Shown here one piece after another: positions 5,510 through 24,262 of a DNA stretch of 64,000 nucleotides (position 1 is its first letter; every line of letters begins with the position of its first letter). This DNA is from Chthoniobacterales bacterium (lineage in GTDB: Bacteria > Verrucomicrobiota > Verrucomicrobiia > Chthoniobacterales > UBA10450), in contig DATENU010000020.1 in assembly GCA_035274845.1 (NCBI GenBank), forward strand, positions 62,001-126,000, in the 5' to 3' direction. The notes below the pieces were generated by a model, which was not told where the DNA came from, did no database searches, and saw only the letters and a program-made list of their open reading frames with translations. The translations under genes and the position numbers were made by a program.

Positions 5510-6646
5510 TCATCCGTTGTTTTCGTGTCCGATTAGGTCGCTAATCTTGCGGCGCGACAGCGCACGCCTAGCTAGCAAACGGTCTTCTTGTTCTTGCGAG
5601 AGCCATTCCAGGAATCTCTGAACGCGGTGGCGGGTGGTTGTTTCGTCTCGGCAATTCGCTACGAAGATCATCTGGATCTTTTGCACGTCGTCTGCGACAT
5701 AGATCCCGAACGGCGCAGCGACCAGCACCGCATCGGGGAATCCCAATTGCCTGAGGGCCTGCCCTTCGCTGACGCTCTTCTGGCAGGCAATTAGGTGAAC
5801 GGGGCCGCCAACTCCAGCCGGAAGTTGTTTCGCGATTTCGTGATCTCTCAGGAACGGCTGCCCGACAAGTTCCCGCGCCGCGGCGACCCCCATTGAAGCC
5901 GGAATGCAATCACAGTTAAACGCAACCGATTCGCCTTCAAGACTTACGACAATCGTATTCTCCAGGCTCGGAACAACTCGTCCGCCGCGTCCTCGTAGGA
6001 AATTTACTAATGTGCCGGTAGTCACTTTCCGGCGCTGATTGAAATCGAGCCTGCTCCAGGAGAGCGCATCGCCACCATAGAACTTACCTTTACTGCTCTC
6101 GGCGACACCCTGCCGCGCTAAGCTTAGCAAAGCAGCGAGGGCTGTCGTTTGCACTGCCGCCAACGCTTCTTCGGCGGTCCCGACCTGTGGACCTAAAATG
6201 TTTTGTCGATGAAAATATTCTTGGAACATCGCGTCGGGAGAGTTTTTCTTCGCTTTTATCTCCGGCAGCATTACGGCGCGCACCTTCGCGGGAGCCCGCG
6301 TGAGCGCTTCATGCATCTCGCCATGGCAAATCCCTATGCGATCGCGGAACTGCTCGCGATCCATCGCCCAACCGCACGCTCCGTTATACAAAACAATCAC
6401 GAGATTGGCATCACGTGCCTTTTCCATGCATTTCTCCCACGAGTCCGCATCCCCTGGCTGGAACGCGTCGTCTTCGTGGATCCACACTTTGAAGAACGAA
6501 ACCCGCTCGATTTTGAGAGATTCCAGTTGCGCTTTGATCGCCCGCCGCAGAACGGACAACTCCTGAGGTTTGCCTTGGAACGTAACCTTGTCCGAGGCGC
6601 GACTCGAGAGCATCACCTGGAGAGGCTCGATTTCTGACAGGCTCAT
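5510..6646 (-). CDS. DUF4062-like protein of the conflict island
   Basis: 378 residues from the ATG at 6646, which places the conserved beginning LQVMLSSRASDKV near the N-terminus; the frame stays open upstream but overlaps the divergent TIR gene. The first 130 residues look like DUF4062 (VMLSS, then LRRAIKAQL, then VWIHEDDAF, then ANLVIVLYNGACGWA), a TIR-like alpha/beta fold common at the N-terminus of STAND ATPases. The C-terminal half contains GGPVHLIACQKSVSEGQALR and IQMIFVANCRDETTTRHRVQ; I cannot assign it to a named domain. It is transcribed away from the TIR-TPR gene, and the two share a short upstream region. A role in sensing or signalling within the island is inferred from context. 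Confidence 0.7.
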   Translation of the reverse strand: MSLSEIEPLQVMLSSRASDKVTFQGKPQELSVLRRAIKAQLESLKIERVSFFKVWIHEDDAFQPGDADSWEKCMEKARDANLVIVLYNGACGWAMDREQFRDRIGICHGEMHEALTRAPAKVRAVMLPEIKAKKNSPDAMFQEYFHRQNILGPQVGTAEEALAAVQTTALAALLSLARQGVAESSKGKFYGGDALSWSRLDFNQRRKVTTGTLVNFLRGRGGRVVPSLENTIVVSLEGESVAFNCDCIPASMGVAAARELVGQPFLRDHEIAKQLPAGVGGPVHLIACQKSVSEGQALRQLGFPDAVLVAAPFGIYVADDVQKIQMIFVANCRDETTTRHRVQRFLEWLSQEQEDRLLARRALSRRKISDLIGHENNG

Positions 6647-6836
6647 AGGAGATTGACGATCTCGCCCGAGTCTGAAGTCAGTCCGTTCAGATGGCGAGCC
6701 GAATCGGACCGCAATCCAGGCTCGTTCTTCCGCCGCGGTCGTTATAGTCTCGCGGTGTGAAACCCAGAATATTCGGCCCGCAACTCTTCGAGGACTCTCT
6801 TGGCGCGGTAAAATGGTGGGCGCAGGCCCGGCCACG

Positions 6837-8978
6837 ATGAGCGCACCGGCGGTCGCCCCGCCAAGCCGCAGGCCGCTCGCGCGGCTTTACGACTTCGTCT
6901 TCGGCTTCGACTATTTTATTTCACATCGGTGGAGGGATGCGCATCTCTACGCTGTGCAACTCGCGGCGAAGCTCGAGCCCGAATTTCATTGCTTTCTCGA
7001 TTCAAAAGATTTCGCCAAGGGCCTGCACTGGACGGTTGAAGGCAAGCGCGCGCTGACTCGCACGAGCATCCTCATCCTGGTTCTCAGTCCGGAGATTTTC
7101 GATTCTGAGCCGGTGCTGGAGGAGGTGTGTTATTTCCAAGCACACAAGCCGGCAAATCGTCTGATCGCCATCGACCCCGGCGGCCTCTTTGCCAGGACGG
7201 CCCCCGATCATCCGTTGATCGCGGCCATTGGCGAGACGCGTCTGCGCATCGACGAGCCCGCCGGGGCGTTGCAGGCCGGACCCTCCGCGGCGCTCGTCGA
7301 TACGCTGCGCCAGGATTTCGACCTCGTGAAACAGAACACGCGCCGCGCGCGTGTGCTCGCCGGAGCTGTGAGCGTGCTCGCAGTGCTGCTCGCCGCCGCG
7401 ATCGCCGCCGCCGTTTACGCTTCGCACCAGCAGCGGCTCGCGGAAAAGGCCCGCGACCGCGAAAGCTCGGCGCGCGCAGCGGCGGAGGGCTTGATCGGAC
7501 AGATTCTCGGCGACTTGCGCGACGATCTCATCCCGCTTGGAAAATCTGATCTGATGGAAAAGGCCACTGCCGCCGCCGAGCGCTACTATGAGGTTTTTCC
7601 GGAAGCCGACCGACACACAAGCGAACGGGAGCAAAGCGTGGCGATGTGGATCGAGCGTGGCGACTCTCACGCATTGCAAGGCCGGCAGCAAACCGCACGG
7701 CATTGTTTCGATGAAGCTCTGCGCATCGCCACCGCGCTTGCTGCTGAGCAACCGGCGAGCTTCGACCGCGCACGTGACGAAGCGTTTGCCCGCGCGCGGG
7801 TCGCCAACAGCCTGCGCAAGCTCGATCAGCCGGAAGAAGCGCTCGCCGCCTACGAAAAATGCCTCGCGGCCCTGCAGATCCTTCGCGCGCGCCAGCCGGA
7901 CAACGCCGAACTGCGCCGCTACGAAAGCGCCTGTCACGGCGAGATGGGCGACGCGCTTGCCGATCTCGGCCGGATGGATGAGGCGCAACGGCGTTACGAG
8001 CAATGCGTTGTCGGCCTCAAGAAGCTGGTCGCCGACACTGGCGCAAAAAGCGCGTTCCGTGACCCGCTCGCGCTGGCGCGGCTGCGCCTTGGCGGCCACC
8101 TCATAGAGACCGGAAAATTTGGGGAAGCAAAGACTGCCTTCCTCGCGCTGCACACGCTGCTGGAAGACCTCGGCCGCGAGCGGCCCGACGACATCCCGCT
8201 CCGCGCGCTCTACGCCGCCGCGTTGGAGAAACTCGGCTACGTCCATTACCGCCTTGGCGACCTCCGCGCCGCGCGCGAGTGGTTTGAGAAGCATCACGAT
8301 CTTGCGCGGACGATGCTTGCCACCGACACGAAGAACAAGGCATGGCGCCGCCAGGCCGCCGTCGCGGAATCGTGGATGGGCGAGCTCGCGCTGGCGGAAG
8401 GCAGCCGCATGTCCGCCCGCGAATCCTTCGAGGCCGCTCGCGAGCTTCTCGTCACCTTGGCCGAGGCCGAGCCGATGAATGGCGGGCTGCAAAACGACCT
8501 CGCCACGAACTACGAAAAGCTCGCCGACGTCGCGGAAGCGCCGGACGACGCCGTCGCTGCGCTCGAAAAGGCACTCACCATCCAGCAGCGCCTCACCAGC
8601 CGCTTCCCGCGATCGTCGGAGTATGCCGTCGGCGTTGTCATCTACCAGCGCCGGCTCGGAGATACCCAGCGTAGCGCCCACCACTGGGATGATGCCGCTG
8701 CGCGCTACGAGGCCGCGCGCCGCGAATGCCGCGCCGTGCTCGCTCGGCTGCCCTCTCTGATCCCCGCCCACCGCGAGCACGCGCACATCCTGCTCGGCCT
8801 CGGCGAAACCGCGCTTGCTCAGAACCGCGCGAGCGAAGCCCGCGCCGCGCTCCTCGAAGCGCGCCAGGAATTCGACGCCCTCGCCGCCGCAAACCGCCTC
8901 GACGCCACCGACGAGCGTTTCCGCGTCCGCCTCATCGAGCGGCTCGAAAACCTGCCAACCAGCGAAGAATCGAAGTGA
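6837..8978 (+). CDS. TIR domain - TM - TPR protein
   Basis: 713 residues from the ATG at 6837; an in-frame ATG at 6813 is possible. Residues about 24-140 form a TIR-like domain (GFDYFISHRWRDAHLYAVQL, FHCFLDSKDF, TSILILVLSPEIF). Residues about 172-195 are one transmembrane helix (VLAGAVSVLAVLLAAAIAAA), followed by a charged coiled coil. Residues about 240-700 are tetratricopeptide repeats (GDSHALQGRQQTARHCFDEAL; LDQPEEALAAYEKCLAAL). The usual Trp before the putative TIR catalytic Glu is absent (FDSEPVLEEV), so NADase activity is uncertain. The architecture places TIR and TPR on the two ends of a membrane segment, as a sensor-effector might be. It is divergent from the DUF4062-like gene. Confidence 0.85.
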   Translation: MSAPAVAPPSRRPLARLYDFVFGFDYFISHRWRDAHLYAVQLAAKLEPEFHCFLDSKDFAKGLHWTVEGKRALTRTSILILVLSPEIFDSEPVLEEVCYFQAHKPANRLIAIDPGGLFARTAPDHPLIAAIGETRLRIDEPAGALQAGPSAALVDTLRQDFDLVKQNTRRARVLAGAVSVLAVLLAAAIAAAVYASHQQRLAEKARDRESSARAAAEGLIGQILGDLRDDLIPLGKSDLMEKATAAAERYYEVFPEADRHTSEREQSVAMWIERGDSHALQGRQQTARHCFDEALRIATALAAEQPASFDRARDEAFARARVANSLRKLDQPEEALAAYEKCLAALQILRARQPDNAELRRYESACHGEMGDALADLGRMDEAQRRYEQCVVGLKKLVADTGAKSAFRDPLALARLRLGGHLIETGKFGEAKTAFLALHTLLEDLGRERPDDIPLRALYAAALEKLGYVHYRLGDLRAAREWFEKHHDLARTMLATDTKNKAWRRQAAVAESWMGELALAEGSRMSARESFEAARELLVTLAEAEPMNGGLQNDLATNYEKLADVAEAPDDAVAALEKALTIQQRLTSRFPRSSEYAVGVVIYQRRLGDTQRSAHHWDDAAARYEAARRECRAVLARLPSLIPAHREHAHILLGLGETALAQNRASEARAALLEARQEFDALAAANRLDATDERFRVRLIERLENLPTSEESK

Positions 8979-9863: not shown

Positions 9864-12800
9864 ATGGATCGGAGATTTCGCGTCTTCATCAGTTCCACAA
9901 CCCATGATTTGCGCAGCTACCGCGATGCAGCGGCAAAGATCGTTCGCGAGGAGAAGAAGCTTGAAGGCATCGATGAGGGGACATTTGCGACCATGGAGTA
10001 TCGTGCCGTGCGTCGCCATTTGTGGGAGCTGATTCAAATCAGCGACGCGGTGATCTTTTTGATCGGCTGGCAATTTGGGGGCGAACCGGCGGAGCGGCCG
10101 GCCAACGTGCCGCGTCGCTCATTCGCGCAGCTCGAATGGGATTTTGCTCGGGTGCTTGGCAAGCCGTGTCATGTGTTTTTCGCGTCGGAAAGCTGTCCCT
10201 TCGACCAGCCCGTCTGGATTGAACCAGACGAAGTGCGTTTGCTTCAACGCGAGCATCGCGATTCGATCGGAGGCGTGATGGCCGGTGGTCTTTGGCACCA
10301 TTTCGGATCGTTGGAGGAGCTGGAGCGTCTGATCCGGGCCATCGATTTTCCTACGCTCGCGCCGCAACGACCGCGCAAAGTTTGCGCGCTCCCGTTCGCG
10401 GCGATGGGTGCGCTGTTCGTCGGACGCGAGGCGGATTTGACCGCACTGGACGGTCAGCTCGGCGTGCAGGGAGCGACCGCGGCGCTCGTGCCTGCGCAGA
10501 CGATTCACGGGCTCGGAGGAATTGGTAAGACGCGGTTGGCGGTGGAATATGCGTGGGCATTTGCCGACCGCTATTCCACGTTGCTCTTCGTTTCAGCTGA
10601 AACACCGGAAGTGCTCGCGCTAAACCTGAGCCGGCTGGCGCGGCCCGAAGCGCTCGCGCTCTCTGAACCCGAAGAAGACAACGAGTCGAGGCAACTGGAA
10701 CTCGTTCTTCATTGGCTCGAACGCGAAACGGGTTGGCTGCTTATCCTCGACAACGCTGATTCGCCAGATGCGGCTGCCGCCGTTCGCGAGGTGCTGCCCC
10801 GGTTGAGCGGCGGCCGGGTGATCATTACCAGCCGCCTTGCGAGTTGGAACGCGGGTGTGCAAAAGCTCGCCTTGGGCGTGCTCAGCGAGGTGGCGTCGGT
10901 GGCATATTTATTGGGCAAATGCCTGACACGACTTGAAACCGAGAACGACGGAGAGGCCGTGGCCGCGCTCGCGCGCGATCTCGGTGGGTTGGCGCTAGCG
11001 CTCGAGCAGGCGAGCGCTTTCATTAATCTCCACGGCCTGAGCTTTGCCGAATATCGCGAGCGCTGGGCGCGCGAGGATGCCGCGGTGCGCGCGTGGTTCG
11101 ACGAAGATTTGATGCGTTATCCGCGCAGCGTGGCAACGACATGGGAGACCAGTTTCGCCGAGCTTGGCGATGACGCGCGCGCCTTGCTTCGGTTGCTTTG
11201 CTGGGTTTCCACCGATCCCGCGCCGCGCGGCCTTTTCCGCACTGAGGCAGCGGCCCGGGTGATCGCCGCGCGGCTGGCTAGCGCGCGGTCGAAACCGCTG
11301 CCCGCTTTGAAAGAGCTGGCGGACTATTCGCTGCTTCAGAGGGCCGGAAAAGACTCGGTGCAAATTCACCGTTTGGTGCAGGAAGTCACCCGGGCACGAT
11401 TGCCCGAGCCTGCGGAGCGACACGCGTGGCTGTCGGATTGTATCCATCTCGTCGATGCCTACGCAACCGGTGATCCGCACGATCCACAGACTTGGGTGGT
11501 TTGGGATCCACTGCGCCCGCATGTGCTATCCGCAGTTTCGTGGGCGGAGAAAGCAAACCTGTTTGAACCTGCTGGCAGGCTGTTGAGCCAGCTCGGGGTG
11601 TTGCTGCTGCGCAAGGCGGTTCATGTGGAATCCGCGGACTGCATGCGGCGGGCCCTTCGACTACGCGCGCGTCATTTCGGCCCGCGTAGCGCGGAGGTCG
11701 CGGGTATCGAGGGGAACCTTGGAACCGTTTCGGAGCGGCTTGATCAACTAGCGGAAGCGGAATTGCACTACCAGAGGGCGCTAGCAATCTTCGAGGAGCG
11801 GCAGCTCGGCGAGAGCGCGGATGCGGCCAACGTGTTGAACAATCTTGCCGCGCTCTACGTGAGCATGAATCGCTTCGACGAAGCGGCCGCCATCTCGGAT
11901 CGAGCCGTGACGCTTGATCGGAAGCTGCTGCCACCAGGGAGTCCAAAACTCGCTCCGGGCCTGAGCAATCGAGGCAGCCTGCTCTGGCGTCTCGGTCGCT
12001 TCGTGGAAGCAGAAGCGGCGTATCGCGAAGCGTTAGCGATCACCGAGCAGCAACATGGAAGCGCCTATCCCGAGGCATCCACGATTCGCAGCAACCTCGG
12101 TCTTTTGCTCCAAGACCTGGGCCGATTTCAAGAGGCCGAAGAGTCATTCCGTGAATCACTGGAAGCCGACACGGCCATCTTCGGCGCGGGTCATCCAGCG
12201 GTCGGCCGCGATTGCAACAATCTCGCGCTGCTTTTAAGATTGCGGGGAAAGCTAAGCGAGGCGGAGAACCTGTTGCGCGAGACGCTCGAAAAGGACCAGC
12301 GCACCTTCGGCGACAAGCACAGCGAAGTTGCCGACGGTTACAGCAATCTCGGACTCGTGCTTACCGACATGGGGCGTGACGAGGAAGCAGAGCAATGTTT
12401 CCGCCGTGCCCTCGCCATCGACGAGGAAGTGCATGGCGCCTCGCATTTACGCGTCGCCATCGTCTGCTTGAACCTTTCGTTTGTGCTGAGAAATCGAGGG
12501 GACTTGGCGGGCGCGATGACGCTTGGCCAGCGCGCGCTGGACATCCAGACCTCGAAACTGGGGGAAGATCATCCCGAAGTCGCTTCAACATGGAATAATT
12601 TAGGCCGGCTCGCGCAACTCGACGGCCGGCTTCCGCTCGCCCGGGCCGCTTTGCGTCATGCCATGTCCATCGATCGCAAAGCTTTTGGGCGCCGTCATTC
12701 GCGGCTTGGCACACGCCTAAACAATCTCGCGCACATTTACTGGCAGGAGGGGCGGCTCGATCGCGCCGAGCGCCTGTATCGCGCAGCCCTCATCGCGGAT

Positions 12801-13013
12801 CGCGCGACGCACGGTCCCGCGCATCCTGAAATCGCGGTCGATTTGTATAACTACGCCGAGTTGCTGCGCGCTCGCGGTCGGGTCGACGAAGCTCGCGCTC
12901 GGCACGCGGAAGCCGTGGAAATCGCGCGGTTATTTCTAACGGGCGACGCGGAACGTACCGACCTGAGACTGCGCGGGATTGTGGATAAATGGGAGACTTC
13001 GACGACGCCATGA
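9864..13013 (+). CDS. DUF4062 - NB-ARC (STAND ATPase) - TPR protein
   Basis: 1049 residues. Residues 5-100 are DUF4062 (RFRVFISSTTHDLRSYRDAA; SDAVIFLIGWQFG). Residues about 185-460 are an NB-ARC STAND ATPase with Walker A GLGGIGKT (216-223), Walker B LLILDNAD (292-299), GGRVIITSR (316-324) and a GLPL-like element (DLGGLALALEQA). Residues about 590-1030 are kinesin-light-chain-type TPRs, each about 42 residues (AEAELHYQRALAIFEE; NLGLLLQDLGRFQEAEESFR). STAND proteins are held off and oligomerise when the repeat region senses a trigger. Here a DUF4062 effector or adaptor would be brought together by that switch. Its stop overlaps the ATG of the TIR-WD40 gene (ATGA at 13010), so the two form one operon. 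Confidence 0.92.
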   Translation: MDRRFRVFISSTTHDLRSYRDAAAKIVREEKKLEGIDEGTFATMEYRAVRRHLWELIQISDAVIFLIGWQFGGEPAERPANVPRRSFAQLEWDFARVLGKPCHVFFASESCPFDQPVWIEPDEVRLLQREHRDSIGGVMAGGLWHHFGSLEELERLIRAIDFPTLAPQRPRKVCALPFAAMGALFVGREADLTALDGQLGVQGATAALVPAQTIHGLGGIGKTRLAVEYAWAFADRYSTLLFVSAETPEVLALNLSRLARPEALALSEPEEDNESRQLELVLHWLERETGWLLILDNADSPDAAAAVREVLPRLSGGRVIITSRLASWNAGVQKLALGVLSEVASVAYLLGKCLTRLETENDGEAVAALARDLGGLALALEQASAFINLHGLSFAEYRERWAREDAAVRAWFDEDLMRYPRSVATTWETSFAELGDDARALLRLLCWVSTDPAPRGLFRTEAAARVIAARLASARSKPLPALKELADYSLLQRAGKDSVQIHRLVQEVTRARLPEPAERHAWLSDCIHLVDAYATGDPHDPQTWVVWDPLRPHVLSAVSWAEKANLFEPAGRLLSQLGVLLLRKAVHVESADCMRRALRLRARHFGPRSAEVAGIEGNLGTVSERLDQLAEAELHYQRALAIFEERQLGESADAANVLNNLAALYVSMNRFDEAAAISDRAVTLDRKLLPPGSPKLAPGLSNRGSLLWRLGRFVEAEAAYREALAITEQQHGSAYPEASTIRSNLGLLLQDLGRFQEAEESFRESLEADTAIFGAGHPAVGRDCNNLALLLRLRGKLSEAENLLRETLEKDQRTFGDKHSEVADGYSNLGLVLTDMGRDEEAEQCFRRALAIDEEVHGASHLRVAIVCLNLSFVLRNRGDLAGAMTLGQRALDIQTSKLGEDHPEVASTWNNLGRLAQLDGRLPLARAALRHAMSIDRKAFGRRHSRLGTRLNNLAHIYWQEGRLDRAERLYRAALIADRATHGPAHPEIAVDLYNYAELLRARGRVDEARARHAEAVEIARLFLTGDAERTDLRLRGIVDKWETSTTP

Positions 13014-15586
13014 GCCTGCCTGTCCGCCGTTACCGCGCCTTCATTTCCTACCGGCACCTCGATAATCGCGAGGAGAACCGCCACTGGGCGCAATGGCTGC
13101 ACGACCGGCTCGAAGGCTATCTCGTGCCGCACGACCTCGTGCGGATCAGGCGGCAAAGTGACCCGGATTTTCCCGATTCGCTCTACCCCATCTTTCGCGA
13201 CGAGAAAGAGCTGCGGCCCGGCGGCAATCTGGCGGCGCTCATCGAAGACGCGCTGACGCGGAGCGATGCGCTGGTCGTGCTTTGCAGCCCGCGCAGCGCA
13301 CAGAGCCCTTGGGTGAAGCGGGAAATCATCGAGTTCAAGAAGCGTGGGCTGGCGGAGCGCATCATCGTCGTGGTGATCGCGGGCGAACCGGGTGCGATAG
13401 CCGCGTGGGAGGATCGTCGCGAGGGCGATCCCAACCGGGAATGTCTGCCACTCGCCTTGCGGTTCGGCGTTCCGCTGGCGCGAGGCGCCGACGACCGTTG
13501 CGCGATCGACTGGAGGAAGCCATTTGAGGAATCGTTGCGGATCGACCTGCGCGCGCCCGGTCTAGGCGGCGAAGGTTTCACGAACGCCGCCGCTTATCGC
13601 CAGGCGCTCGAGCGAGCCGATCAGCGTCTTGCCGAAGAGAGGCGGCGGACGAAAAAACAACTGCGCGCGTCCGAGGAAAACTATCAACGCACCTTGCACG
13701 AAGCAGTGTTGAAGATTATCGCCGGTGTTCTCCGTGTCGATCTCGGCGAGCTGACCCGTCGTGATATCGCCGCGCGCAGCCAGCGTTTGCGCCGGGCGCT
13801 GTATCTTGCCGTAGCAGTGCTTGTGGCCGTGGGCCTCTTCGCCGCGGCGGCCGTCTATCAAAATTATCGCCGTCAGACTTTGTTGCGCGAGGCGAGCGGT
13901 GCCGATCATGTGCGAGCAGTGGAATTGCTCCGGGAGGAAAAGTGGTCCGATGCCCTCGCGTATCTTGCCCGGGCGTTGCGCTACTGGCCGGAAAATCCCG
14001 CCGCCTCGGGTCAACTTTGGCTTTGCCTGCGCTACGGGCGCGCGGCGTCCAGCCCGGTACCGGAGCCGCCATTGTTACTGCCCGGGCATGCCAACACCCT
14101 GAGCTGGAGCGCGACTGGAAACTAGCTACTCGCGACGGCCGATGGGCAAAATGCATGGCTCGTCAAGCGGATGCAACGAAGCGCCACCGGCCCGGTCGCC
14201 GGGAGGTGGCCGGCCGGTTTTGTTCCGCCGCTCGAAGGTCAGACGCACCTTTTTTCGCGCGACGAAAAGTTTCTCGTAATCACCTCATGGCATGGGCGCT
14301 GGCTGAGCTTCTCGTGTGATCCTTTTCAACTGCTCGACTACGCGGAAGGACGCGACGATACCGATCCTGCGTGGGCGATGCCTGTCCTCCGAGGCAGCGA
14401 CGGCGTCATCCACCTGGTTCTCTCGGATCGCGAGAAGGGCACCCGTCTTCGCCCGATCGACGACGCAAATAAAGTCATTATTCTCTCGGACAAGGCCTAT
14501 CCGCTCTCAGCGGCGGACTGGCATCCGAGTGAACCATTTCTGGCCGTGTCAACCGGGGCGCAGAGCTTTGCCCTCTTTCACGCAGACACCGGCGCGCGTC
14601 TCTGCGCGGACGTTTCAGTCGCGCACCCAATCAGCTCGCTTCGCTTTCACCCCGGCGGCGATTTTTTGTTGTGCGATCATGGCGATCAAGAGGGTGACGG
14701 TTGGGTGGTGCTCAAGGCGCGCGCTCCATTTTCTGTCGTGAGCGAAGGAGTGTCGAAAGGCCAGGCTATGTGGCTTCCGGGCAAAACCGACGGGCTCATT
14801 GAGGCGCGGATGCTAGGACTACGGCGCTTTTCCGCACCGGATTTCGCCACCCCGGAGCGGCTCGATTTCGATGCGATCAATGCCACTTTCTCCGGCGTCT
14901 CCACCGATCTTCCTCGAATTTTGCTCGAGCCGCTGACCGGGCGCTTCGAGGTCTTCGACTTGCGGCTTGGCTGGCGCCTGTCGCCAAACGACGCGTTGCC
15001 TGAGGGGCTCCAGTCCCCTGTCATTGACTCTACAGGCGGCTACGTGGCGGCCACTTTGACGCCTGCTCTCGATGCGAATGACGAACGAAATCCGCATCCC
15101 ATCTCGCACCTCGGCATCTGGCAATTGCCGCTCGCGCTCCCGGCGGATCGTGGCGTGGTGCCGGATTTGCCGATTGGCGCGGATGGGCCTTCGCCGGACG
15201 GCGCGTGGAGCTTTCGCCGGCCGCGCGACAGCGCGCTGCTAATCCGCCGGCTCGGCGGAGGCGACATGGATTGGACGCTGGAACTGGAAGAGCGCGCCAT
15301 CGACGCGGCTCAATGGCAGAGAGACGGCCGAACGCTCGCGGTTCGTTATCGCGCCAATTTCGTGCAACACCTGCCGTGGCCGCCTCCCGCAGAAAGCGAT
15401 GAGGCAATTACCCGCTTCGCCGTGCTGCTTGGAGGCCGGGAGCTGAAACCCGACGGCTCGCTCGCTACGCTGTCGCTGGAAACGCAATCGACCTGGCGTG
15501 AGCATCTGCGCACCGCCCAACCGCGGCATCAGCGCTGGAAAGAATTGCGCGATTGGTGGCTGGCAGGCAGGCCCTCGACGCCGTAG
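13010..15586 (+). pseudogene. TIR - TM - WD40-like gene interrupted by one in-frame TAG
   Basis: One reading frame of 859 codons carries a single TAG at 14123-14125 (codon 372); both sides are coding in the same register. The TIR domain lies at about 8-130 (RYRAFISYRHLDNREENRHW; LVVLCSPRSAQSPWVKREI) with Trp101 and Glu105 in the canonical SPWxxxE arrangement. Residues about 262-284 are a TM helix. A WSDALAYLARALRYWPEN hinge follows, then a WD40-like propeller (LSWSATGN, stop, LLATADGQNAWLVK). The protein ends at 15586. The residues flanking the stop continue a normal propeller strand, so this is a recent nonsense mutation, a sequencing error, or readthrough. If unread, the 371-residue product keeps TIR and TM but loses its sensor. 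The ATG at 13010 overlaps the NB-ARC stop; an ATG at 12989 is less likely. Confidence 0.85.
14123..14125 (+). other. In-frame TAG splitting the TIR-WD40 gene
   Basis: The codons before are GGA-AAC and those after are CTA-CTC-GCG-ACG-GCC-GAT-GGG, giving GN*LLATADG. In WD40 strands this position normally holds a charged or polar residue. Single-base changes from AAG, CAG, GAG, TGG, TAC or TCG would each produce TAG. No second frame change is seen up to the natural stop at 15586. Confidence 0.9.
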
Positions 15587-15619: not shown

Positions 15620-16159
15620 CTAAAGCCGGCCCAAGCCGCGCAGGACGAGTTCGATGATTCGGCCTGGGTCCACCGTTTCAAACAATTCGACCTGTTCTGC
15701 GGGTGCGAGCAACGGATTGAGTCCTGCCATACCTTTGCCGCGGAGGAGCGCGACAATATCCGGGTAATCCAGCCACGGGAGGACAAAGTAAAGAAAACCG
15801 GACAGAAGTTCGACAGAGACCTCTGGAAATTTGTCCAGCTCGCGCCAAGTCTCGGCATCGAAGATCTCGAGGCGCCGGCGAAACGGCCGAGCACTCAGAA
15901 AGCCGGAAGAATAGGGCTCTAAGGAATCCGCGCGTGCAGCGCCTTCTAAAAACGCTATTGCAACACCGTGCGATGCAAGGAACTCAACGACCTCAATACC
16001 AACGTTGGCGGCGATTCGCGCTCGACTCTGGTGGAGTATTCGAAGGCCAGCGCTTTCAAGTTTGACCAGGTCCTGGCGAAGGGGCCGAGCTGCCGAACGG
16101 ATTGTATTGGGCGCGTCGAGCCCGGAGCTTAGTGGTGTGATTTTGCTTCCATGGCTCAA
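15620..16159 (-). CDS. Unknown protein between TIR-WD40 and TIR-SLOG-CHAT genes
   Basis: The minus frame of up to 179 residues starts at a TTG (16159); no ATG lies near its N-terminus, so the true start is unsure. The sequence reads as plausible protein (ANVGIEVVEFLASHGVAIAF; RRRLEIFDAETWRELDKFPE; SGFLYFVLPWLDYPDIVALL) and has no clear TM segment or signal peptide. I do not recognise a family. It is convergent with the upstream TIR-WD40 gene and divergent from the CHAT gene. It could be a small regulator of the island or a decayed piece of a larger gene. Confidence 0.4.
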   Translation of the reverse strand: MSHGSKITPLSSGLDAPNTIRSAARPLRQDLVKLESAGLRILHQSRARIAANVGIEVVEFLASHGVAIAFLEGAARADSLEPYSSGFLSARPFRRRLEIFDAETWRELDKFPEVSVELLSGFLYFVLPWLDYPDIVALLRGKGMAGLNPLLAPAEQVELFETVDPGRIIELVLRGLGRL

Positions 16160-16253: not shown

Positions 16254-19200
16254 ATGAAGCGGCCCGTGCTGATTTTGCAGTCGGTATATTTCCATCAGTC
16301 CGATCGCGAAGAGGCGCTGCGGCTGGGGAGCGATCTCTATGGCAGGCTGACACGGCCTATCGACGATCCGTTGGCGCATGGACCGGGGATTTCGGTGTTG
16401 GTAGGCGTCGAGGCGGAATCTGTCGATGTCGCGGCGGCTGATACGGTGGTGCTCATTCCCGTACTGGGGAGCGCGACGCGCGGGCTAATGGTTAATGTGG
16501 TGCTGCGGACCCTGGCGGACTGGCACGCAGCGCTTGGGCCGGGGCATGTGTTGACGGTCCCGATTTCGGCAAACTGGCGGTCGGACGAAGGCAAGCTGCC
16601 GGGAAAACAGATGCTCTCAATGCTCTACGGCCGGGGTGACCCCCGTCGGGCGACGCTCGATGAGATCGTGCTCGCGGTGAGCCGCCTCTGGAACGCCGGG
16701 GGGCAGAGTCCGCAACTATTCATCTCCCATGCGAAGGCGGACCTTACGGCCACGGATGAAGCGGCGAAAAAGATCCACGCGTTCGCGGTGACCGACACGA
16801 CCGGGAAGGCATTCTTCGATGCGACGGATTTGCGACCAGGCGAATCGCTCGAAGGCCAGCTCGACGACGCCGTGACACGCGGGGTTTTGATTTCCGTGCG
16901 GGGTGATGTTTACAGCTCGCGCGTTTGGTGCCAACGGGAGGTGCTCGTAGCGAAGCTGCACGGAATGCCCGTGCTAGCGGTCGAAATACTGCGCCGGGGC
17001 GAACTGCGCAGTTCGCCCTATGGCGGCAATAGCCCGAGCCTCGTCTGGGACGGCAATCCCTCGCCCATCGTTTCGCAAGCGATGGTGGAATGGCTGCGTT
17101 CGGAGTTTTTCCGCCGGGAAGCGCGCCGCATCATTACGGCGGCGAATCTACCTCAAGACGTCGCGGTCGTGGCGCGACCGCCGGAGTTGCTCGACCTCGC
17201 CCAAGGGCCGTTGCGCAGCGAGCGCGCTCAACTGGTGCTGCATCCCGATCCCGAGCTCTCCGTGATCGAGCGGCGGGTGCTAAAGGCCGCACGTCCGCGC
17301 CTGCACCTAGCCACTCCCTCCACGGCCTTTCGCCGACTGCTGAGCCGCGGGGAGGAGGCGGCCGACGTGGCTTCTCCTCTGGAAGGCATGCAAGTCGCGA
17401 TGTCGCTTTCCGACAGCCCGGATGCAGGCGGTCCGGAGGGCTTCACCGCGGAGCACGCGAAGGATGCGACCGTGGCCATCGCTCGCACGCTCATCTCCGC
17501 TGGCGCGGCGATAGCGTATGGCGGCGATTTTCGCCCCGGAGGCTTCACTCCGCTGTTGGCGCAGTTGATCCAGAATTACAACCAGACGGCAACGAAGACC
17601 GCGCAGGATTTGCATAGCTATCTCGCGGCGATCATTTCCCCGGGCGACGCCCCAGAGAATATTCCGCTCAGCATTCATCATCTCGCGGCTTCTCCCGATA
17701 TGGCCGCAGAGGCGATCCTCTCCCCTCCCACGAAGGAAGGCGAGCCGCCGAACGCATTGTATTTTTCGGACATGCGCCGAGTCATGGAAAAGCACATCGC
17801 GGCGCGCGTGATCCTCGGAGGAAATGCCGATGCTCGAACGGAGGCCGGGGGTGCGGGCTATGGCGGTCGCTATCCCGGCGTGGTCGAGGAGGCGTGGCGG
17901 TCGCTGGAAATCGGCAATCCGCTCTACGTGTCGGGCGGCTTCGGTGGCGCGGCGGCGATCGTGGCGGACCTTTTGGAAGGGAAGGCCGCGCCCGAAAAAC
18001 TACAGGACGGCATCTGGATGCAGCACCCCTATTTCGCGAAGAACGCCGGCCAGCTCGACGCGCATCCGATGCGGAAAAAACTCGGGTTACCGGAGACGAT
18101 GGCAGAGCTCGCGGCGGCGATAAAGAATCTCGCCGGCGCGCTGCTGAAAAATGACGAGGCTTCCCTGGCTTGGAATGGGCTGTCCGTGAAAGAAAACCAG
18201 CTGCTCTTCCGGACCCGCGATTCTGTAATGCTCTCGGCCCTGATTTCCAAAGGCCTGCTGGGTATCGCTCGCGCGCAAGCCGCGGGCATCCTCCAGATCG
18301 AGCTGGTCCATGACAGCCTGACTGCGGCGGAGAAGCTCGATGCGGTCGCCATCGCCACGCTCGACGGAGTGCCGCTCGGCGGCGCCGGCGCGGCCATCGA
18401 CCAGCTCACCGGTGGCATCGCCTCGGAGGCGCGTTCCGCCGGCCGGACCTTGGTGAGTCTGCAAGACACGATCATCGACGCAGAATGGCTTTTCCTCGCA
18501 TCGCTCGGCGCTTTGGGCGACTCAGCCGGAATCCTAGGCAGGATCGAGCAGGCGGCGGCGGAGACTTGCGAGGAGGCGACGCGGCACGGGTTCCAGCGAG
18601 TGGGAGTGGTGAGCTTTGGCGGGAATGTACTGGCGGATACGCAGGCGGTCGCAAGCGCGATGATACGCGGTTTTTCCAAAAGCCCGCGACGTCCGGTGCT
18701 CGTATGGCATGAGACCGATGACACGCGCTTCAATACTCTCTGCGACACGCTGGGTAGAGACTCGGAGCTAAAACTGACGACGCGCCAATCGCTGGCGAGA
18801 ATCGCTGCCGAGCCCGGTCCTCGAGAACCGATGATCCTCCATGTCCGACTCGAAGACGATCACTTGGAGGCGACGTGTTTGCTGCCTTCCTCGGCTGCCG
18901 TGGTTCCCACCATCCGCACCAAATTGTCGCCGGCCGAGCTTTCCCGTCTCGCCGAAGGCAGCGGACCGCGCAAACGCAGCACGCCGAACTTGGAGACTCT
19001 CGAACAGCGAGGCGAAGAACTGGCTGAGCGGTTATTCGGGAAGCAGGCGTCGGCGATCCTCGCGGCGTGCCGGGACTCGCGGATGGTGGTGATGCACGAT
19101 ACCGCTGCGTCGAAGGTTCCTTTCGAGATGCTCCTAGCCCCGCCGGATTTGCGACCGGCGCTCGCTGGCGGCATCACGCGCCGGTTGTCCATTTCGGGCT

Positions 19201-19841
19201 TGGCGTTCGAACGCCAGTTCGCCCAGCCGCCAAAAAAAGCGAAACTCAAGATACTGCTCATCGCGAACCCAACTCGCGACCTCCCCGGCGCGGCCAGGGA
19301 GGCCGAGGCCGTGCGTAAAATTCTTCTCAGCCAAAGCGACCGCCTGGAACTTGAAGAGCTTTGGGAAAACGAGGCCACGGAAGCCAAAGTCGCCGACGCG
19401 CTCGCCAGGGCCGACATCCTGCACTACTGCGGCCATGCTTTTTTCGACGGTCCCGGGCCTGCGGAAAGCGGGCTGGTTTTGGCTGGGCCAACGCCCTTCA
19501 CCGGCGAAGACCTGGGGAGCGTCGCCCGGCTACCGCGTATCGCATTTGTTAATGCCTGCGAAGCGGGGCGCGTCCGCGGCGAGCCCGCCACCAACGCCGC
19601 CGCGTTCGCGGAGCTGTTCCTTCAGAGCGGCATGGATGCCTATCTGGGCACCTTTTGGGAAGTGGGGGATTCTGCTGCGGAGCGATTTGCCGGCACGGTG
19701 TACACCAAGCTCGCCATCGGCGAAACGCTCGAACAGGCGGCCCTCGCGGGCCGCAACGCTTTGTTCGCCGCCCGCGAACCCGATTGGGCGAACTACATGC
19801 TTGTCGGGGGCGCCAATTTCCGCCTCATCTCGGGTAGATAG
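16254..19841 (+). CDS. TIR - SLOG - CHAT protease fusion
   Basis: 1195 residues. Residues 1-147 are an alpha/beta domain (VLILQSVYFHQSDREEALRL; AADTVVLIPVLGSATRGLM), possibly a degenerate TIR. Residues 152-245 are a TIR domain (PQLFISHAKADLTATDEAAK; RGVLISVRGDVYSSRVWCQR) with Trp225 and candidate catalytic Glu229. Residues about 378-580 look like a SLOG Rossmann domain (AYGGDFRPGGF, 421-431; YVSGGFGGAAAIVADLL, 558-574). SLOG domains bind nucleotide derivatives. Residues about 1050-1195 are a CHAT caspase-like protease with His1061 (HYCGHAFF) and Cys1102 (VNACEAGR). The fusion puts a nucleotide-signal maker, a possible reader and a protease in one chain. It stands alone on the plus strand, with its own promoter expected before 16254. 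Confidence 0.88.
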   Translation: MKRPVLILQSVYFHQSDREEALRLGSDLYGRLTRPIDDPLAHGPGISVLVGVEAESVDVAAADTVVLIPVLGSATRGLMVNVVLRTLADWHAALGPGHVLTVPISANWRSDEGKLPGKQMLSMLYGRGDPRRATLDEIVLAVSRLWNAGGQSPQLFISHAKADLTATDEAAKKIHAFAVTDTTGKAFFDATDLRPGESLEGQLDDAVTRGVLISVRGDVYSSRVWCQREVLVAKLHGMPVLAVEILRRGELRSSPYGGNSPSLVWDGNPSPIVSQAMVEWLRSEFFRREARRIITAANLPQDVAVVARPPELLDLAQGPLRSERAQLVLHPDPELSVIERRVLKAARPRLHLATPSTAFRRLLSRGEEAADVASPLEGMQVAMSLSDSPDAGGPEGFTAEHAKDATVAIARTLISAGAAIAYGGDFRPGGFTPLLAQLIQNYNQTATKTAQDLHSYLAAIISPGDAPENIPLSIHHLAASPDMAAEAILSPPTKEGEPPNALYFSDMRRVMEKHIAARVILGGNADARTEAGGAGYGGRYPGVVEEAWRSLEIGNPLYVSGGFGGAAAIVADLLEGKAAPEKLQDGIWMQHPYFAKNAGQLDAHPMRKKLGLPETMAELAAAIKNLAGALLKNDEASLAWNGLSVKENQLLFRTRDSVMLSALISKGLLGIARAQAAGILQIELVHDSLTAAEKLDAVAIATLDGVPLGGAGAAIDQLTGGIASEARSAGRTLVSLQDTIIDAEWLFLASLGALGDSAGILGRIEQAAAETCEEATRHGFQRVGVVSFGGNVLADTQAVASAMIRGFSKSPRRPVLVWHETDDTRFNTLCDTLGRDSELKLTTRQSLARIAAEPGPREPMILHVRLEDDHLEATCLLPSSAAVVPTIRTKLSPAELSRLAEGSGPRKRSTPNLETLEQRGEELAERLFGKQASAILAACRDSRMVVMHDTAASKVPFEMLLAPPDLRPALAGGITRRLSISGLAFERQFAQPPKKAKLKILLIANPTRDLPGAAREAEAVRKILLSQSDRLELEELWENEATEAKVADALARADILHYCGHAFFDGPGPAESGLVLAGPTPFTGEDLGSVARLPRIAFVNACEAGRVRGEPATNAAAFAELFLQSGMDAYLGTFWEVGDSAAERFAGTVYTKLAIGETLEQAALAGRNALFAAREPDWANYMLVGGANFRLISGR

Positions 19842-19922: not shown

Positions 19923-22880
19923 CTATTTGTCCTGCTTGTTCTTTGCCCGAACGCGCTCGATCTTTTTGCCGTCCCCGAAGCTGAGCATCTCGGCTTCGTC
20001 ATAAAGCCCGGCATGGAGAAAGAATTCGAAGAGTTCGGGCACCGTTTGCTTCGCACCGGGATAGACTGGTCGGGTTGCGCGATCAGCCAGATACCAGCGG
20101 CAGAATGTCAACTCCTCATCGTCGCCCTTCGCGTCCGCCCACTCTTGCCGCAGGCGATTGACCGTGTCGCTGGAGATAGGCTGTTCGCGATTCTCCACGA
20201 CGGAAGCAACTGGCACCACATATCCATTCGTATCGGCATCCGCGCCAGTGATGGCCCGGACGAGCTGCGTGAGTCGCGTAATCGTGGGCAGAGTGTGCGG
20301 GAATCCGAGCTTGTAAGTGACCCGGTATTTCTGTTGGCCGGTATTCATGACAAACTGCAGCTTCCCCCGGGTCCACTGCAGCTCAGAAACATCAAAGAGC
20401 TGGTTTTTGTCCGCTTTCCAGCCTGCGCGAGGAGCCAGGAGATCGGAGAAAGGTGCGCGGCGTCGCCAGTCCCAAAGAAGAATGCGGCCCGCTTCATTGA
20501 TCAAGCAGAGGGTCGAAGGATCATCGCCAAAGCACAGGCCCACGATACTGCCAAAAGAGGCGCTATCGTCTAGTTCGAGCGTTTTCGGTAGCTGCTTGAC
20601 CGTTAGCAATTTCCCATTTCCCGTATCCCAAACCATCAGCGAAAAGCCTTCCTTGTCGTGAGCTGCCACCGCGACGTATTGGCCATCATTCGAAATTGCT
20701 CCCCGAGCATTCACGTTGCTAGAATCCTCAGACCACTCTAATTTAAAGTCAGGCTTGAGGGGAATCGCTTGTCTGGCGTCACGGCGTAGAGCGAGCTCAA
20801 AAGTGAAAGCATCTGGCAACTCTTTTGGATCGGATGGATCTCTTCCCAAGGTCGTCACGGTGGCCGATAGGATTATCGATGGATTGGTGGACCGTGCCAG
20901 TTCGGTGACTCCCTCGAGCAGACTCCCTCCATAGAAACGCGTGGGCGCCTCCTGCGGAACAACCTCTGGCAAGGCCATCCCTTGCTTCCCATCGAAGATA
21001 CAGTATTCGGAATGTTCGATGTCTCTGCCTTTGACCGAAGTGTGTTCAGATACGAGCGCCCCGAGAAAGAAGTCGCGCGCGCCAGCCAAATACCAAGTCA
21101 TGGGAGTAGTGATCGCCTTGATCCGAAGCTTGCCCGACGCCTCTTGGCGAAGTTTACCCAACAGGAGGCGATCTGTGCCACAAAACAGAAACAAATCTGT
21201 CCCCGGCCAAAATTGCCCTTCCGACCCGCGGCCAGCCGAGCGCTGGAGTGCCATGGGCCACTCCACATCCTGAAGCTGCTTGAGATTTGTGCCTTGAATC
21301 GCGTATGCCGGGAGAGAGGTCTTTTTGTCTCCAGAAGAGTGCGGAGGAGAGAAAGCCAGCACCGCGCCGCTCGCATCGATAGATAGGTCAGAGTACGATG
21401 GAATGGTGGCAAATTTTTCCTGCGTAGATTCCAGCGTCAGATTTTGTGTCTGGAGTTCACAAAGCCAGATGCCCTCACCCTTCACCGAGGGCATGTTGTA
21501 TAGAAACGCGAGACGCCTTTCATCTGGAAAGGGCTGGATGTGGCGAACACTGGACGTTCCAATATTCAGCTTCTGCGTAACCAATTTCGGCTCTGGACCG
21601 GCAAACCTCCAGATGTAGACGTCGATCCCATCGGGATGTTTCGACACTTCACGCTCGTTACGGTTTTCGGGCCCACCGGCGGCGACGACCAACCCCAGAG
21701 AGGGAAGCAAGGCGATTGCCGAAACTTCCTTCGGCACCTTTTGCCGAAGTTCCTTGGACGTATTCAAATCCATGACGGCCAACCAATTTTGCTCTCCGAA
21801 GCCGTCAACCGCCCTGGTGGCAAACCATCTCCCGTCGCGGCTCATGGTTCCGCTGAAGAAAGGGTCCAATCCCGAATCCGGTTTGCTCAGGTCAGCCAAT
21901 CCCATTTTGTGCTCCCCAGGCACAGAGCCTCGAAACTCATTCGGAATTCCGTTTAGTACAACGCGAAAGTTTCCATCATCCGAAACGCCGAAACCTGAAA
22001 TGCGCGAAAAACTTTGATATGCGTCCGCCGAGGCCGGCCCCGCGACCGGGATCGCAAAGGTCCGCTGGGTTAAAAGGCCATAGAGCCGGTCGGCGACCAG
22101 ACGGTTCTCCGGCCAGATCCGCAGCGCGTGGAGCAGCAGCGGAAGCGCCTCCATTTCCTCACTTTCATTGATCGCTCGCTGGGCCGCGATGTAACCCTCG
22201 TTGGAACGCTGGTGCTGTGCGTCGGCGAGCGCGTCATCTGCCTGTTTCCGCGCTTTATTCGCCTCTTGCCGCGCCGCCGCCTCGGCCGCGGCTATCTTCG
22301 TCTGCCGTAGGTAAAGTCCGAAGCTCGCCATTGCCAGCATGCTCACGGTGACGAAAGCGGTAGCGATGCCCACGCGCCGCAACGTATCAACTTGCCAGCG
22401 CCGGACATGATTGCGAAGTGTGGCGATCACTATTGTAGAAGGAACCGCCGGGTTCGGTTCCATGACGCTGCGTGGGTCGACAACTTGCTTTAGACTGCTC
22501 GAGGAATTCGCCCATCCTATCCCGCGATCCACCAGCATGATCCGCTTCTTCATCTGAACTGCGAGTCGGGCTTCGTTGAGCACAGAGGGCCTTTCTCCCG
22601 TGGCACTACCGGCTAGGATGACCACAAAGCGGCTTTCACGGAGACGCCCTGCGATGGCCTCGGAGAGGGTTTCATCTTGGTTAAGTCCTTTGATATCCAG
22701 AAAACATCTTAATCGAGGCTTCTCATTGGCGAGCTTGACGAAAAGCGCATTCGCATAGCGGCTCTCACGATCATCCTCGCGGGTGTAACAAATAAAGACA
22801 TCGAACCCGTAGAAATGGTCCATACAGCGCCGCAGTAAACTTCGCCTGGCCGCCAGGGGTTCAAGCGGATCAGTCTTCAT
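19923..22880 (-). CDS. TIR - TM - WD40-like protein
   Basis: 985 residues from the ATG at 22880; the open frame continues 13 codons upstream. The TIR domain lies at about 24-140 (YGFDVFICYTREDDRESRYA; LRCFLDIKGL; FVVILAGSATGERPSVLNEA). Residues about 168-190 form a TM helix, then an Ala/Lys-rich coiled coil and an ALPLLLHALRIWPEN hinge shared with the broken TIR-WD40 gene. Residues about 250-900 are propeller-like repeats (MSRDGRWFATRAVD; AISNDGQYVAVAAHDKEGFS). The C-terminus adds a helical ELFEFFLHAGLYDEAEMLSF segment. As in the TIR-TPR protein, the Trp before the TIR Glu is missing. It is convergent with the CHAT gene and closes the island. Confidence 0.85.
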   Translation of the reverse strand: MKTDPLEPLAARRSLLRRCMDHFYGFDVFICYTREDDRESRYANALFVKLANEKPRLRCFLDIKGLNQDETLSEAIAGRLRESRFVVILAGSATGERPSVLNEARLAVQMKKRIMLVDRGIGWANSSSSLKQVVDPRSVMEPNPAVPSTIVIATLRNHVRRWQVDTLRRVGIATAFVTVSMLAMASFGLYLRQTKIAAAEAAARQEANKARKQADDALADAQHQRSNEGYIAAQRAINESEEMEALPLLLHALRIWPENRLVADRLYGLLTQRTFAIPVAGPASADAYQSFSRISGFGVSDDGNFRVVLNGIPNEFRGSVPGEHKMGLADLSKPDSGLDPFFSGTMSRDGRWFATRAVDGFGEQNWLAVMDLNTSKELRQKVPKEVSAIALLPSLGLVVAAGGPENRNEREVSKHPDGIDVYIWRFAGPEPKLVTQKLNIGTSSVRHIQPFPDERRLAFLYNMPSVKGEGIWLCELQTQNLTLESTQEKFATIPSYSDLSIDASGAVLAFSPPHSSGDKKTSLPAYAIQGTNLKQLQDVEWPMALQRSAGRGSEGQFWPGTDLFLFCGTDRLLLGKLRQEASGKLRIKAITTPMTWYLAGARDFFLGALVSEHTSVKGRDIEHSEYCIFDGKQGMALPEVVPQEAPTRFYGGSLLEGVTELARSTNPSIILSATVTTLGRDPSDPKELPDAFTFELALRRDARQAIPLKPDFKLEWSEDSSNVNARGAISNDGQYVAVAAHDKEGFSLMVWDTGNGKLLTVKQLPKTLELDDSASFGSIVGLCFGDDPSTLCLINEAGRILLWDWRRRAPFSDLLAPRAGWKADKNQLFDVSELQWTRGKLQFVMNTGQQKYRVTYKLGFPHTLPTITRLTQLVRAITGADADTNGYVVPVASVVENREQPISSDTVNRLRQEWADAKGDDEELTFCRWYLADRATRPVYPGAKQTVPELFEFFLHAGLYDEAEMLSFGDGKKIERVRAKNKQDK

Positions 22881-23214
22881 AATTACAGGCCGTGGCTGTG
22901 CACCATCCGCCGCGGGCATTGCATTTCAGCCCCGCGTTCGCTCTTTGGGCGCCACTTCGCCGTAACCGTCTCGTGACTTTGCCTCGAAATACCTGTCTTT
23001 GGCGATGAACAAATATCTCTGGCGAATAGTAACCGTGAATAGGAAGCACGGTTTGATCCCGTTCTTCTGCAAGAGGTGCAGTTGCAATCGGCGATCCAAA
23101 ATATAGCAACCGAAGTGTGGCAAGTTTGTGTACTAGGATTTGTGCTAGTGGCCTGACCCCGGAAACGTGGACATGACATAAATGTAGTTCTGCCTTTAGA
23201 AAGGCAAAACGAAA

Positions 23215-23503: not shown

Positions 23504-24262
23504 GTGAAGCTCACAGTGGAAGAAGGCTTGGGCAGCGCGGCCCAAGCCTGCCGAGCGATCGATTTGGCGCGCTCGAGTTATTATCGGCCGGCGCAGCTTA
23601 GTCGAAAGAGGCGCGGAGTGAATCGAGCCGTGATTAAACGAAGCGAGCAGCATCCCCGTTACGGTTATCGGCGCATCACAGCGCTCCTGCGACGCAGCGG
23701 TCTAAGGATCAAATCCGAAGTGCGTCCAGCGCTTGCGCCGGGTGGCGGGAATCCAGGTACGTCAAAGACAAAGACGGATGCGGCGGCTGGGACCGCAGGA
23801 GAGCACTCGAATGCGGGCGACTGTCCCAAGGCAGGTTTGGAGCTGGGATTTTGTGGAGGACCAAACGGAAAATGGAACGCGCTTCCGTATTTTGACGCTC
23901 CTTGATGAGCACACCCGAGAGTGCCTGGCGATGCACGCGGCCTGGTCCCTCCGGGTCGTGGACGCGATCACGATCATCGAAGCGACAATCGCGCATTACG
24001 GCACACCGCCACATCTGCGCAGCGACAACGGCCCGGAGTTTATCGCCTACGCCATCCAGGATTGGCTCAAAGAGCGGCAGATTAAAACCCTCTACATCAA
24101 GCCGGGCAGTCCGTGAGAAAACGGTCACATCGAGAGCTGGCGCGTGGAATATAACGAAAAGCGGCGCCACAGCTCGCTCGGCTACCAAACACCAGGAAAG
24201 TTCGCCCGAGGCGCGAACAAAATTGGGCTCCTCCCGGCCTCCTTCCGCCCAAACTTGCCAAG
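23504..24262 (+). pseudogene. IS3-type OrfB transposase remnant (DDE), broken
   Basis: The first part reads KLTVEEGLGSAAQACRAIDL and HPRYGYRRITALLRRSGL, then shifts frame near 23725. The DDE core continues as WSWDFVEDQTENGTRF (first Asp) and LRSDNGPEFIAYAI (second Asp). At 24115-24117 the expected SPWENG reads SP-stop-ENG (TGA for TGG). After HIES a block normally present before WRVEYNEKRRHSSLGYQTP is missing. Frameshift, nonsense and deletion together show a long-dead transposase. Confidence 0.85.

Follow-up and report, generated by a model that had tools for sequence, protein, structure and literature searches.

A gene at positions 16254–19841 (+) of the 64,000-nucleotide stretch analysed here (contig DATENU010000020.1 of a Chthoniobacterales bacterium; hereafter, the window) encodes TIR, SLOG, macro, and CHAT domains in one chain of 1195 aa, within an intact open reading frame (ORF) running from ATG to stop. 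The sequence-only reading of this gene had reported TIR, SLOG, and CHAT in a single chain, an observation confirmed by the ORF itself, by Pfam, and by a TIR profile built from relatives. Chains of this makeup are also encoded in distant bacteria, beside other TIR immune genes, so the protein probably acts as a phage-defence switch uniting components that mostly reside in separate proteins. In the best-supported reading, it would be a nucleotide-gated CHAT protease, or in other words a single-chain, Thoeris-like effector of abortive infection whose protease is gated by a nucleotide derived from nicotinamide adenine dinucleotide (NAD), to which we give a probability of about 0.5.

Three kinds of effectors (SIR2-SLOG, transmembrane-macro, and caspase-like) are known from Thoeris systems, and a nucleotide made by a TIR switches each of them. 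The 1195-aa protein unites SLOG, macro, and a caspase-fold protease with an intact TIR, and it is conserved across phyla. Being compact and expressible, it lends itself to testing how a protease is gated by NAD-derived signals, which of the readers matters, and whether a single TIR can produce the signal and also serve as effector.

Domain architecture of the 1195-aa protein

The chain consists of five folded parts in the order N-terminal domain, TIR, SLOG, macro, and CHAT. Its AlphaFold2 model, computed from a 31-row alignment, had a mean predicted local distance difference test score (pLDDT) of 80.8 and a predicted template modelling score (pTM) of 0.76.

The TIR domain (16704–17153, +; residues ~151–300, core 154–245) was matched by Pfam TIR_2 over residues 156–234 when the single sequence was searched, with 19.1 bits (E 0.0019), under the cut-off of 28. 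Its identity was secured by the TIR profile of 20 relatives, which found solved TIR NADases (4c7m, E 1.5e-7; 3h16, E 3.6e-7; AbTIR 8g83, E 2.7e-6) and placed E229 opposite the Glu of the WxxxE-type motif in TcpB, PdTIR, and AbTIR. The TIR of one ortholog (L036; L numbers denote our loci) exceeds the Pfam cut-off, with 36.5 bits. The motif W225-C226-Q227-R228-E229 (16926–16940, +) contains the predicted catalytic Glu, assigned by conservation and by alignment to TIR NADases. W225, C226, and E229 are invariant across six four-domain chains; among all 31 aligned relatives, E229 and C226 are invariant and W225 is kept in at least 90%. An intact TIR with Trp225 and Glu229, as claimed by the sequence-only reading, is thus present, and its sequence predicts that it would cleave NAD+.

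The middle domain, previously assigned to SLOG by motif, proved to be SLOG-like. Pfam LD_cluster2 (PF18163) matched residues 376–650 with 149.7 bits against a cut-off of 25.3 (E 1.6e-43). Including a helical C-terminal part, the domain spans residues 376–668 (17379–18257, +), and the earlier boundary at residue 580 was therefore too short. Positions S384, S386, G423, G424, R508, P541-G542, E545-E546, and G564-G565 are invariant or nearly so.

The C-terminal third (18819–19826, +; residues ~856–1191) comprises a pseudo-caspase-like half and a CHAT caspase-like protease domain. Pfam CHAT matched residues 920–1185 with 98.1 bits against a cut-off of 24 (E 8e-28), and the region gave VIA Z of 20.0 to Csx29 (7y9x) and 19.4 to separase (5fc2). 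The predicted catalytic residues His1061 (19434–19436, +; in HYCGH) and Cys1102 (19557–19559, +; in NAC) end strands 1055–1064 and 1096–1102 of the AlphaFold model, both of which belong to the caspase-like sheet, in agreement with the CHAT fold expected for this pair. In SAVED-CHAT 8tl0 (profile E 2.7e-8), their aligned counterparts are the H and C in the stretches 'LHFIGHG' and 'NACC', and both residues are invariant in 13 of 13 macro-CHAT rows. The domain is a CHAT protease by the family cut-off and the His/Cys dyad, and proteolysis is predicted.

The three-domain makeup given earlier was incomplete, as it overlooked a macro domain (18279–18767, +; residues ~676–838), which is present wherever this CHAT module occurs and is a second candidate for reading ADP-ribose. 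Residues 676–838 gave VIA Z of 17.7–19.2 over 148–161 residues to macro domains (among them PARP9-macro2, Thermus 2dx6, and AF1521). The assignment of this Peptidase_M17_N-like macro domain was independently supported by sequence, because profile matches of the region reached 2dx6 (E 0.0024–0.014) and TARG1/C6orf130 (E 0.02–0.07), and Pfam Peptidase_M17_N matched in two relatives (best E 7e-8).

The N-terminal domain (16254–16703, +; residues 1–150) has no catalytic Glu motif and is kept in TIR-SLOG relatives. Profile search and structure prediction, as proposed for these residues by the sequence-only reading, revealed a folded Rossmannoid domain (pLDDT 91.5 when modelled alone) and no Pfam or NCBIfam match. 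It was considered as a second TIR, but VIA Z of ~10 was tied between TIR (3ub2, 9lmq, 8fex, 7uxr) and receiver domains, the hhalign match to the TIR profile was weak (prob 3.6, E 0.012), and profile matches to the PDB were at chance level. We therefore left it as TIR/receiver-like.

Relatives of the gene and the macro-CHAT module

A TIR-SLOG profile scan of 84,980 genomes yielded 80 loci. Because the scan relied on one pattern of ten residues and the relatives are mostly metagenome bins, the frequencies reported here are lower bounds. Five further intact four-domain chains were found, in Verrucomicrobiales (L033), Gammaproteobacteria (L034), an unplaced bin (L035), 'Deltaproteobacteria' (L065), and Kofleriaceae (L036), the last two counted here as Myxococcota/'Deltaproteobacteria'. 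Their identity is 33–59%, and all catalytic residues are invariant throughout the four-domain clade; the N-terminus and macro region of L036 are more diverged. With the exception of a few truncated or interrupted ones, the remaining loci hold either TIR-SLOG fusions that lack CHAT or a TIR gene next to a SLOG gene.

The TIR+SLOG tree of 77 rows placed the six four-domain proteins on one side of a branch with a Shimodaira–Hasegawa-like approximate likelihood ratio test (SH-aLRT) support of 99. The relatives without CHAT in this tree comprised 35 fused TIR-SLOG proteins and 36 split into adjacent genes. The macro-CHAT tree grouped the five closest proteins with support of 96/96, with weak inclusion of L036 (63/39), and the macro-CHAT part appears compatible with one origin. 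Because the TIR+SLOG clade is supported and the macro-CHAT tree is compatible with it, the four-domain architecture most likely arose once and then spread between phyla. Besides the window's own copy, no full-length copy was found among 213 genomes of the same order, and family, order, and class searches for close homologs gave partial matches only. A phage-borne origin was rejected after two viral contig scans returned no relative.

The macro-CHAT pair also occurs behind an alpha/beta hydrolase, on contig C10 of the bacterium's own genome, in members of its family, on a Rhizobium plasmid (p1, NZ_CP071627), and at L125; at L126 and L124 it stands without a detected input domain. Found behind TIR-SLOG, behind alpha/beta hydrolases such as lipases, and apparently alone, macro-CHAT looks like an interchangeable effector unit that the window gene exposes, with TIR-SLOG as its input in the four-domain clade. 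In all the macro-CHAT proteins that were compared, even those that lack SLOG, macro directly precedes CHAT, and we therefore infer that macro is more likely the direct gate of CHAT, with SLOG adding or replacing input. On contig C10 (L024, 5094–8690), the lipase-macro-CHAT protein has ~1199 aa and is followed by a STAND-type NTPase-WD40 gene.

Adjacent TIR genes and the proposed mechanism

TIR-SLOG genes are often flanked by separate TIR genes. Within 1 kb, 73 TIR ORFs were counted over 145 flanks (0.50 per flank), with 22 over 136 flanks at 1–2 kb and ~0.01 per flank beyond 3 kb. A TIR ORF was present within 2.5 kb at 37 of the 57 loci having at least 2.5 kb on each side, and at least one TIR gene is adjacent at five of the six four-domain loci. 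Two ThsB_TIR proteins lie directly downstream at L065 (66 and 67.7 bits; cut-off 21.2). At L033, where a ThsB_TIR partner scored 27 bits, one TIR lies directly upstream, a long TIR gene is convergent, and a separate lipase gene is adjacent, while L034 has TIRs on either side and L035 a partial TIR downstream (24.5 bits, under the cut-off of 28). PADLOC labels the small partner TIRs ThsB. In the window, two genes for TIR + WD40/beta-propeller-like proteins adjoin the four-domain gene. One is a convergent candidate partner of 998 aa at 19923–22919 (-) (TIR_2 1.9e-7, ThsB_TIR 1.8e-5), and the other, a candidate partner or remnant at 12989–15586 (+) (865 codons; TIR_2 5.3e-14, ThsB_TIR 1.8e-7), shows on read-through a single in-frame stop at 14123–14125.

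From the observed domains, residues, architecture, and TIR linkage, we infer a ligand, a mode of activation, substrates, and an antiphage role as follows. Phage infection would turn on a TIR NADase, most likely that of the adjacent ThsB-like TIRs and possibly the cis TIR (E229), and its activity would yield an NAD+-derived nucleotide. SLOG and probably macro would bind this nucleotide (a cyclic ADP-ribose isomer, ADP-ribose, or a derivative), changing the assembly state of the protein. The change would release the CHAT protease (H1061/C1102), which would cleave cellular or partner proteins. The cis TIR may also deplete NAD+, and phage production in the infected cell would stop. It should be noted that the probabilities given to this reading and to its rivals overlap, because it spans both signal sources.

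Several observations weigh against a nucleotide-gated protease. PADLOC 2.0.0 assigned the protein to no family at E up to 1. The SLOG family here is LD_cluster2 rather than the STALD of ThsA, and for this reason the ligand cannot be transferred from ThsA. No TIR neighbour was detected at L036, where one was looked for, and the TIR neighbours in the window are not co-operonic with the four-domain gene, one being broken and the other convergent. Hydrolytic macro domains depend on a catalytic Asn. This Asn is missing from the macro domain of the window protein, and the first nucleotide loop is eroded in some relatives, so the macro domain may be structural only. Within the four-domain clade, both nucleotide loops keep most of their glycines; together with the missing Asn, this would fit a reader better than an eraser, or else a structural remnant.

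With regard to the source of the signal, we favour partner TIRs as the signal makers, with the cis TIR acting as an NADase effector in the manner of SIR2, because of the strong linkage between TIR-SLOG genes and separate TIR genes and because TIR-SLOG proteins without macro-CHAT exist. As a full explanation, the protein would be ThsA-like with SIR2 swapped for TIR: ThsB-like partners would signal, SLOG would bind, and the cis TIR would degrade NAD+, with macro-CHAT as a second effector, perhaps triggered by ADP-ribose from the TIR. This arrangement parallels the SIR2-SLOG and ThsB of type I Thoeris (PMC11204291), and it agrees with the position of macro between SLOG and CHAT and with ~70 TIR-SLOG relatives (fused or split) that lack macro-CHAT, many of them beside ThsB-like TIRs. 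However, the catalytic motif cannot tell depleting from signalling TIRs, and the window partners share no operon with the gene; we hold this explanation tentatively, at clearly less than even odds.

Rather doubtful, in our view, is a self-contained unit in which CHAT would be activated by a signal that comes from the cis TIR and is read by SLOG and/or macro, either within that protomer or in an adjoining one. Such a unit would need no partner gene, the N-terminal domain or the TIR serving as infection sensor. It is kept alive by the cis TIR, whose catalytic Glu is intact in all aligned relatives, and by L036 with its lack of a detected TIR neighbour; moreover, every part lies within one chain, and the window offers no co-directional intact partner. 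Self-sufficiency is opposed by the tight linkage of TIR-SLOG genes to separate TIR genes, including five of the six four-domain genes, and by the split of TIR and SLOG into adjacent genes in 36 of the 77 rows, implying that the cis arrangement is dispensable for function. Of the all-in-one signal-and-protease unit first proposed for this gene, the domains in cis stood, whereas the TIR linkage counts against independence from partners. A chain that makes a messenger, reads it through SLOG and macro in cis, and executes through CHAT would be a complete caspase-like immune pathway, a prospect we consider unlikely.

A protease with a housekeeping or regulatory target, for instance one processing a linked lipase or STAND protein, rather than an antiphage effector, seems improbable. 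Macro-CHAT is fused to alpha/beta hydrolases in several genomes and a lipase gene adjoins the L033 ortholog, but the four-domain gene is patchy across phyla, has no second full-length copy in its order, and is surrounded by TIR and DUF4062 genes, as would be expected for a defence island. Lastly, the scarred surroundings (the in-frame stop at 14123–14125, a SLOG fragment at 15620–15775 (-), and transposase-like fragments at 23.5–24.1 kb) might point to a fusion or assembly artefact or a decayed, functionless gene, but this was rejected as highly implausible, being contradicted by five independent intact orthologs from other genomes and phyla, whose catalytic residues are invariant, and by their single supported clade.

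Comparison with known systems and the surrounding genes

In ThsA, the reader is the SLOG domain in type I, which recognises 3'cADPR (cADPR being cyclic ADP-ribose), and the macro domain in type II, which recognises nucleotides made by TIRs (PMC11204291; PMC12948488). As in type I Thoeris (ThsA SIR2-SLOG and ThsB TIR), SLOG is here a candidate reader of a TIR-made NAD derivative, and ThsB-like TIR genes adjoin the orthologs L065 and L033, whereas the window neighbours are of the TIR-WD40 type. Unlike type I ThsA, the protein has LD_cluster2 instead of STALD, no SIR2, a TIR in cis, and additional macro and CHAT domains. Neither SIR2 nor STALD families were listed in the Pfam scan of the protein at E up to 10, and STALD had no match in its own genome; the two STALD matches across 388 genomes were both weak and too few for a profile comparison with the ThsA pocket. 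The macro domain as a candidate reader in a TIR system recalls type II Thoeris (PMC11204291), whose ThsA is a transmembrane-macro protein. Unlike type II ThsA, the window protein has no transmembrane part, and its macro domain is M17_N-like and stands ahead of a protease.

The closest annotated NCBIfam relatives of TIR-SLOG proteins are those of type III Thoeris (SLOG-related ThcA and TIR protein ThcB4), whose models, unlike the 1195-aa protein, have no CHAT or macro. TIR-SLOG relatives scored up to 56 bits with ThcB4 and 23 bits with ThcA, far under the cut-offs of 220 and 110. The 1195-aa protein scored 15.8 bits with ThcB4, below the type III cut-off, had no match to ThcA, and belongs to no NCBIfam model.

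In type IV Thoeris, a caspase-like protease is activated by N7-cADPR (PMC12847820), so that, likened by its description, the coupling of TIR signalling to a caspase-fold protease effector is shared. There, one operon carries the TIR and protease as separate genes, while here a single chain joins them to SLOG and macro. The placement of a CHAT protease behind a regulatory module is shared with SAVED-CHAT (8tl0) and with Craspase TPR-CHAT/Csx29. The inputs differ, being TIR-SLOG-macro here, SAVED in SAVED-CHAT, and TPR with a guide-RNA complex in Craspase; no SAVED family was found in Pfam or PADLOC scans of the 1195-aa protein, and the region before its CHAT is the macro domain. TIR-SLOG (LD_cluster2) proteins, whether fused or split, have the same N-terminal domain, TIR, and SLOG and lack macro-CHAT, whereas lipase-macro-CHAT proteins have the same macro-CHAT with invariant His and Cys and an alpha/beta hydrolase in place of TIR-SLOG.

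Each part is already known, as are the pairs TIR-SLOG, TIR-to-macro, and TIR-to-protease, and 'TIR-SLOG-based antiviral systems' is a term used in PMC9503650. Our literature search found no description of a SLOG-CHAT, TIR-CHAT, or macro-CHAT chain or of a chain with SLOG, TIR, and CHAT, and an earlier description may exist.

Among the TIR-SLOG relatives, several Bacteroidota loci (L073, L074, L075, L078, L079, L085, L100, and similar ones) form operon-like sets in which a SLOG gene and a TIR gene bearing the N-terminal domain accompany three ThsB-like TIR genes that differ from one another. These sets resemble type III Thoeris, with scores below the NCBIfam type III models. The relative in a Lokiarchaeota metagenome-assembled genome (L053, an Asgard archaeal bin) is a TIR-SLOG gene directly preceded by a gene for a ThsB-like TIR.

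The window region holds at least five TIR-like genes. A TIR-TPR protein is encoded at 6813–8978 (+), and a weak DUF4062 match lies at 5510–6835 (-). At 9864–13013 (+), DUF4062 is followed by an FxSxx-type NTPase-TPR (NF040586, 342.8 bits, over the cut-off); DUF4062 was recently reported as the TIR-like NADase 'Swarozyc' (PMC13174449). In the ORF at 15620–16159 (-), ~50 codons (15620–15775) match the C-terminal end of LD_cluster2, with 50% identity to L044, and the rest of the ORF has no match to LD_cluster2 proteins. Located directly upstream of the four-domain gene, this fragment looks like what is left of a second TIR-SLOG gene. Beside the TIR cluster, IS3-type transposase-like fragments were recognised by eye at 23504–24116 (+).

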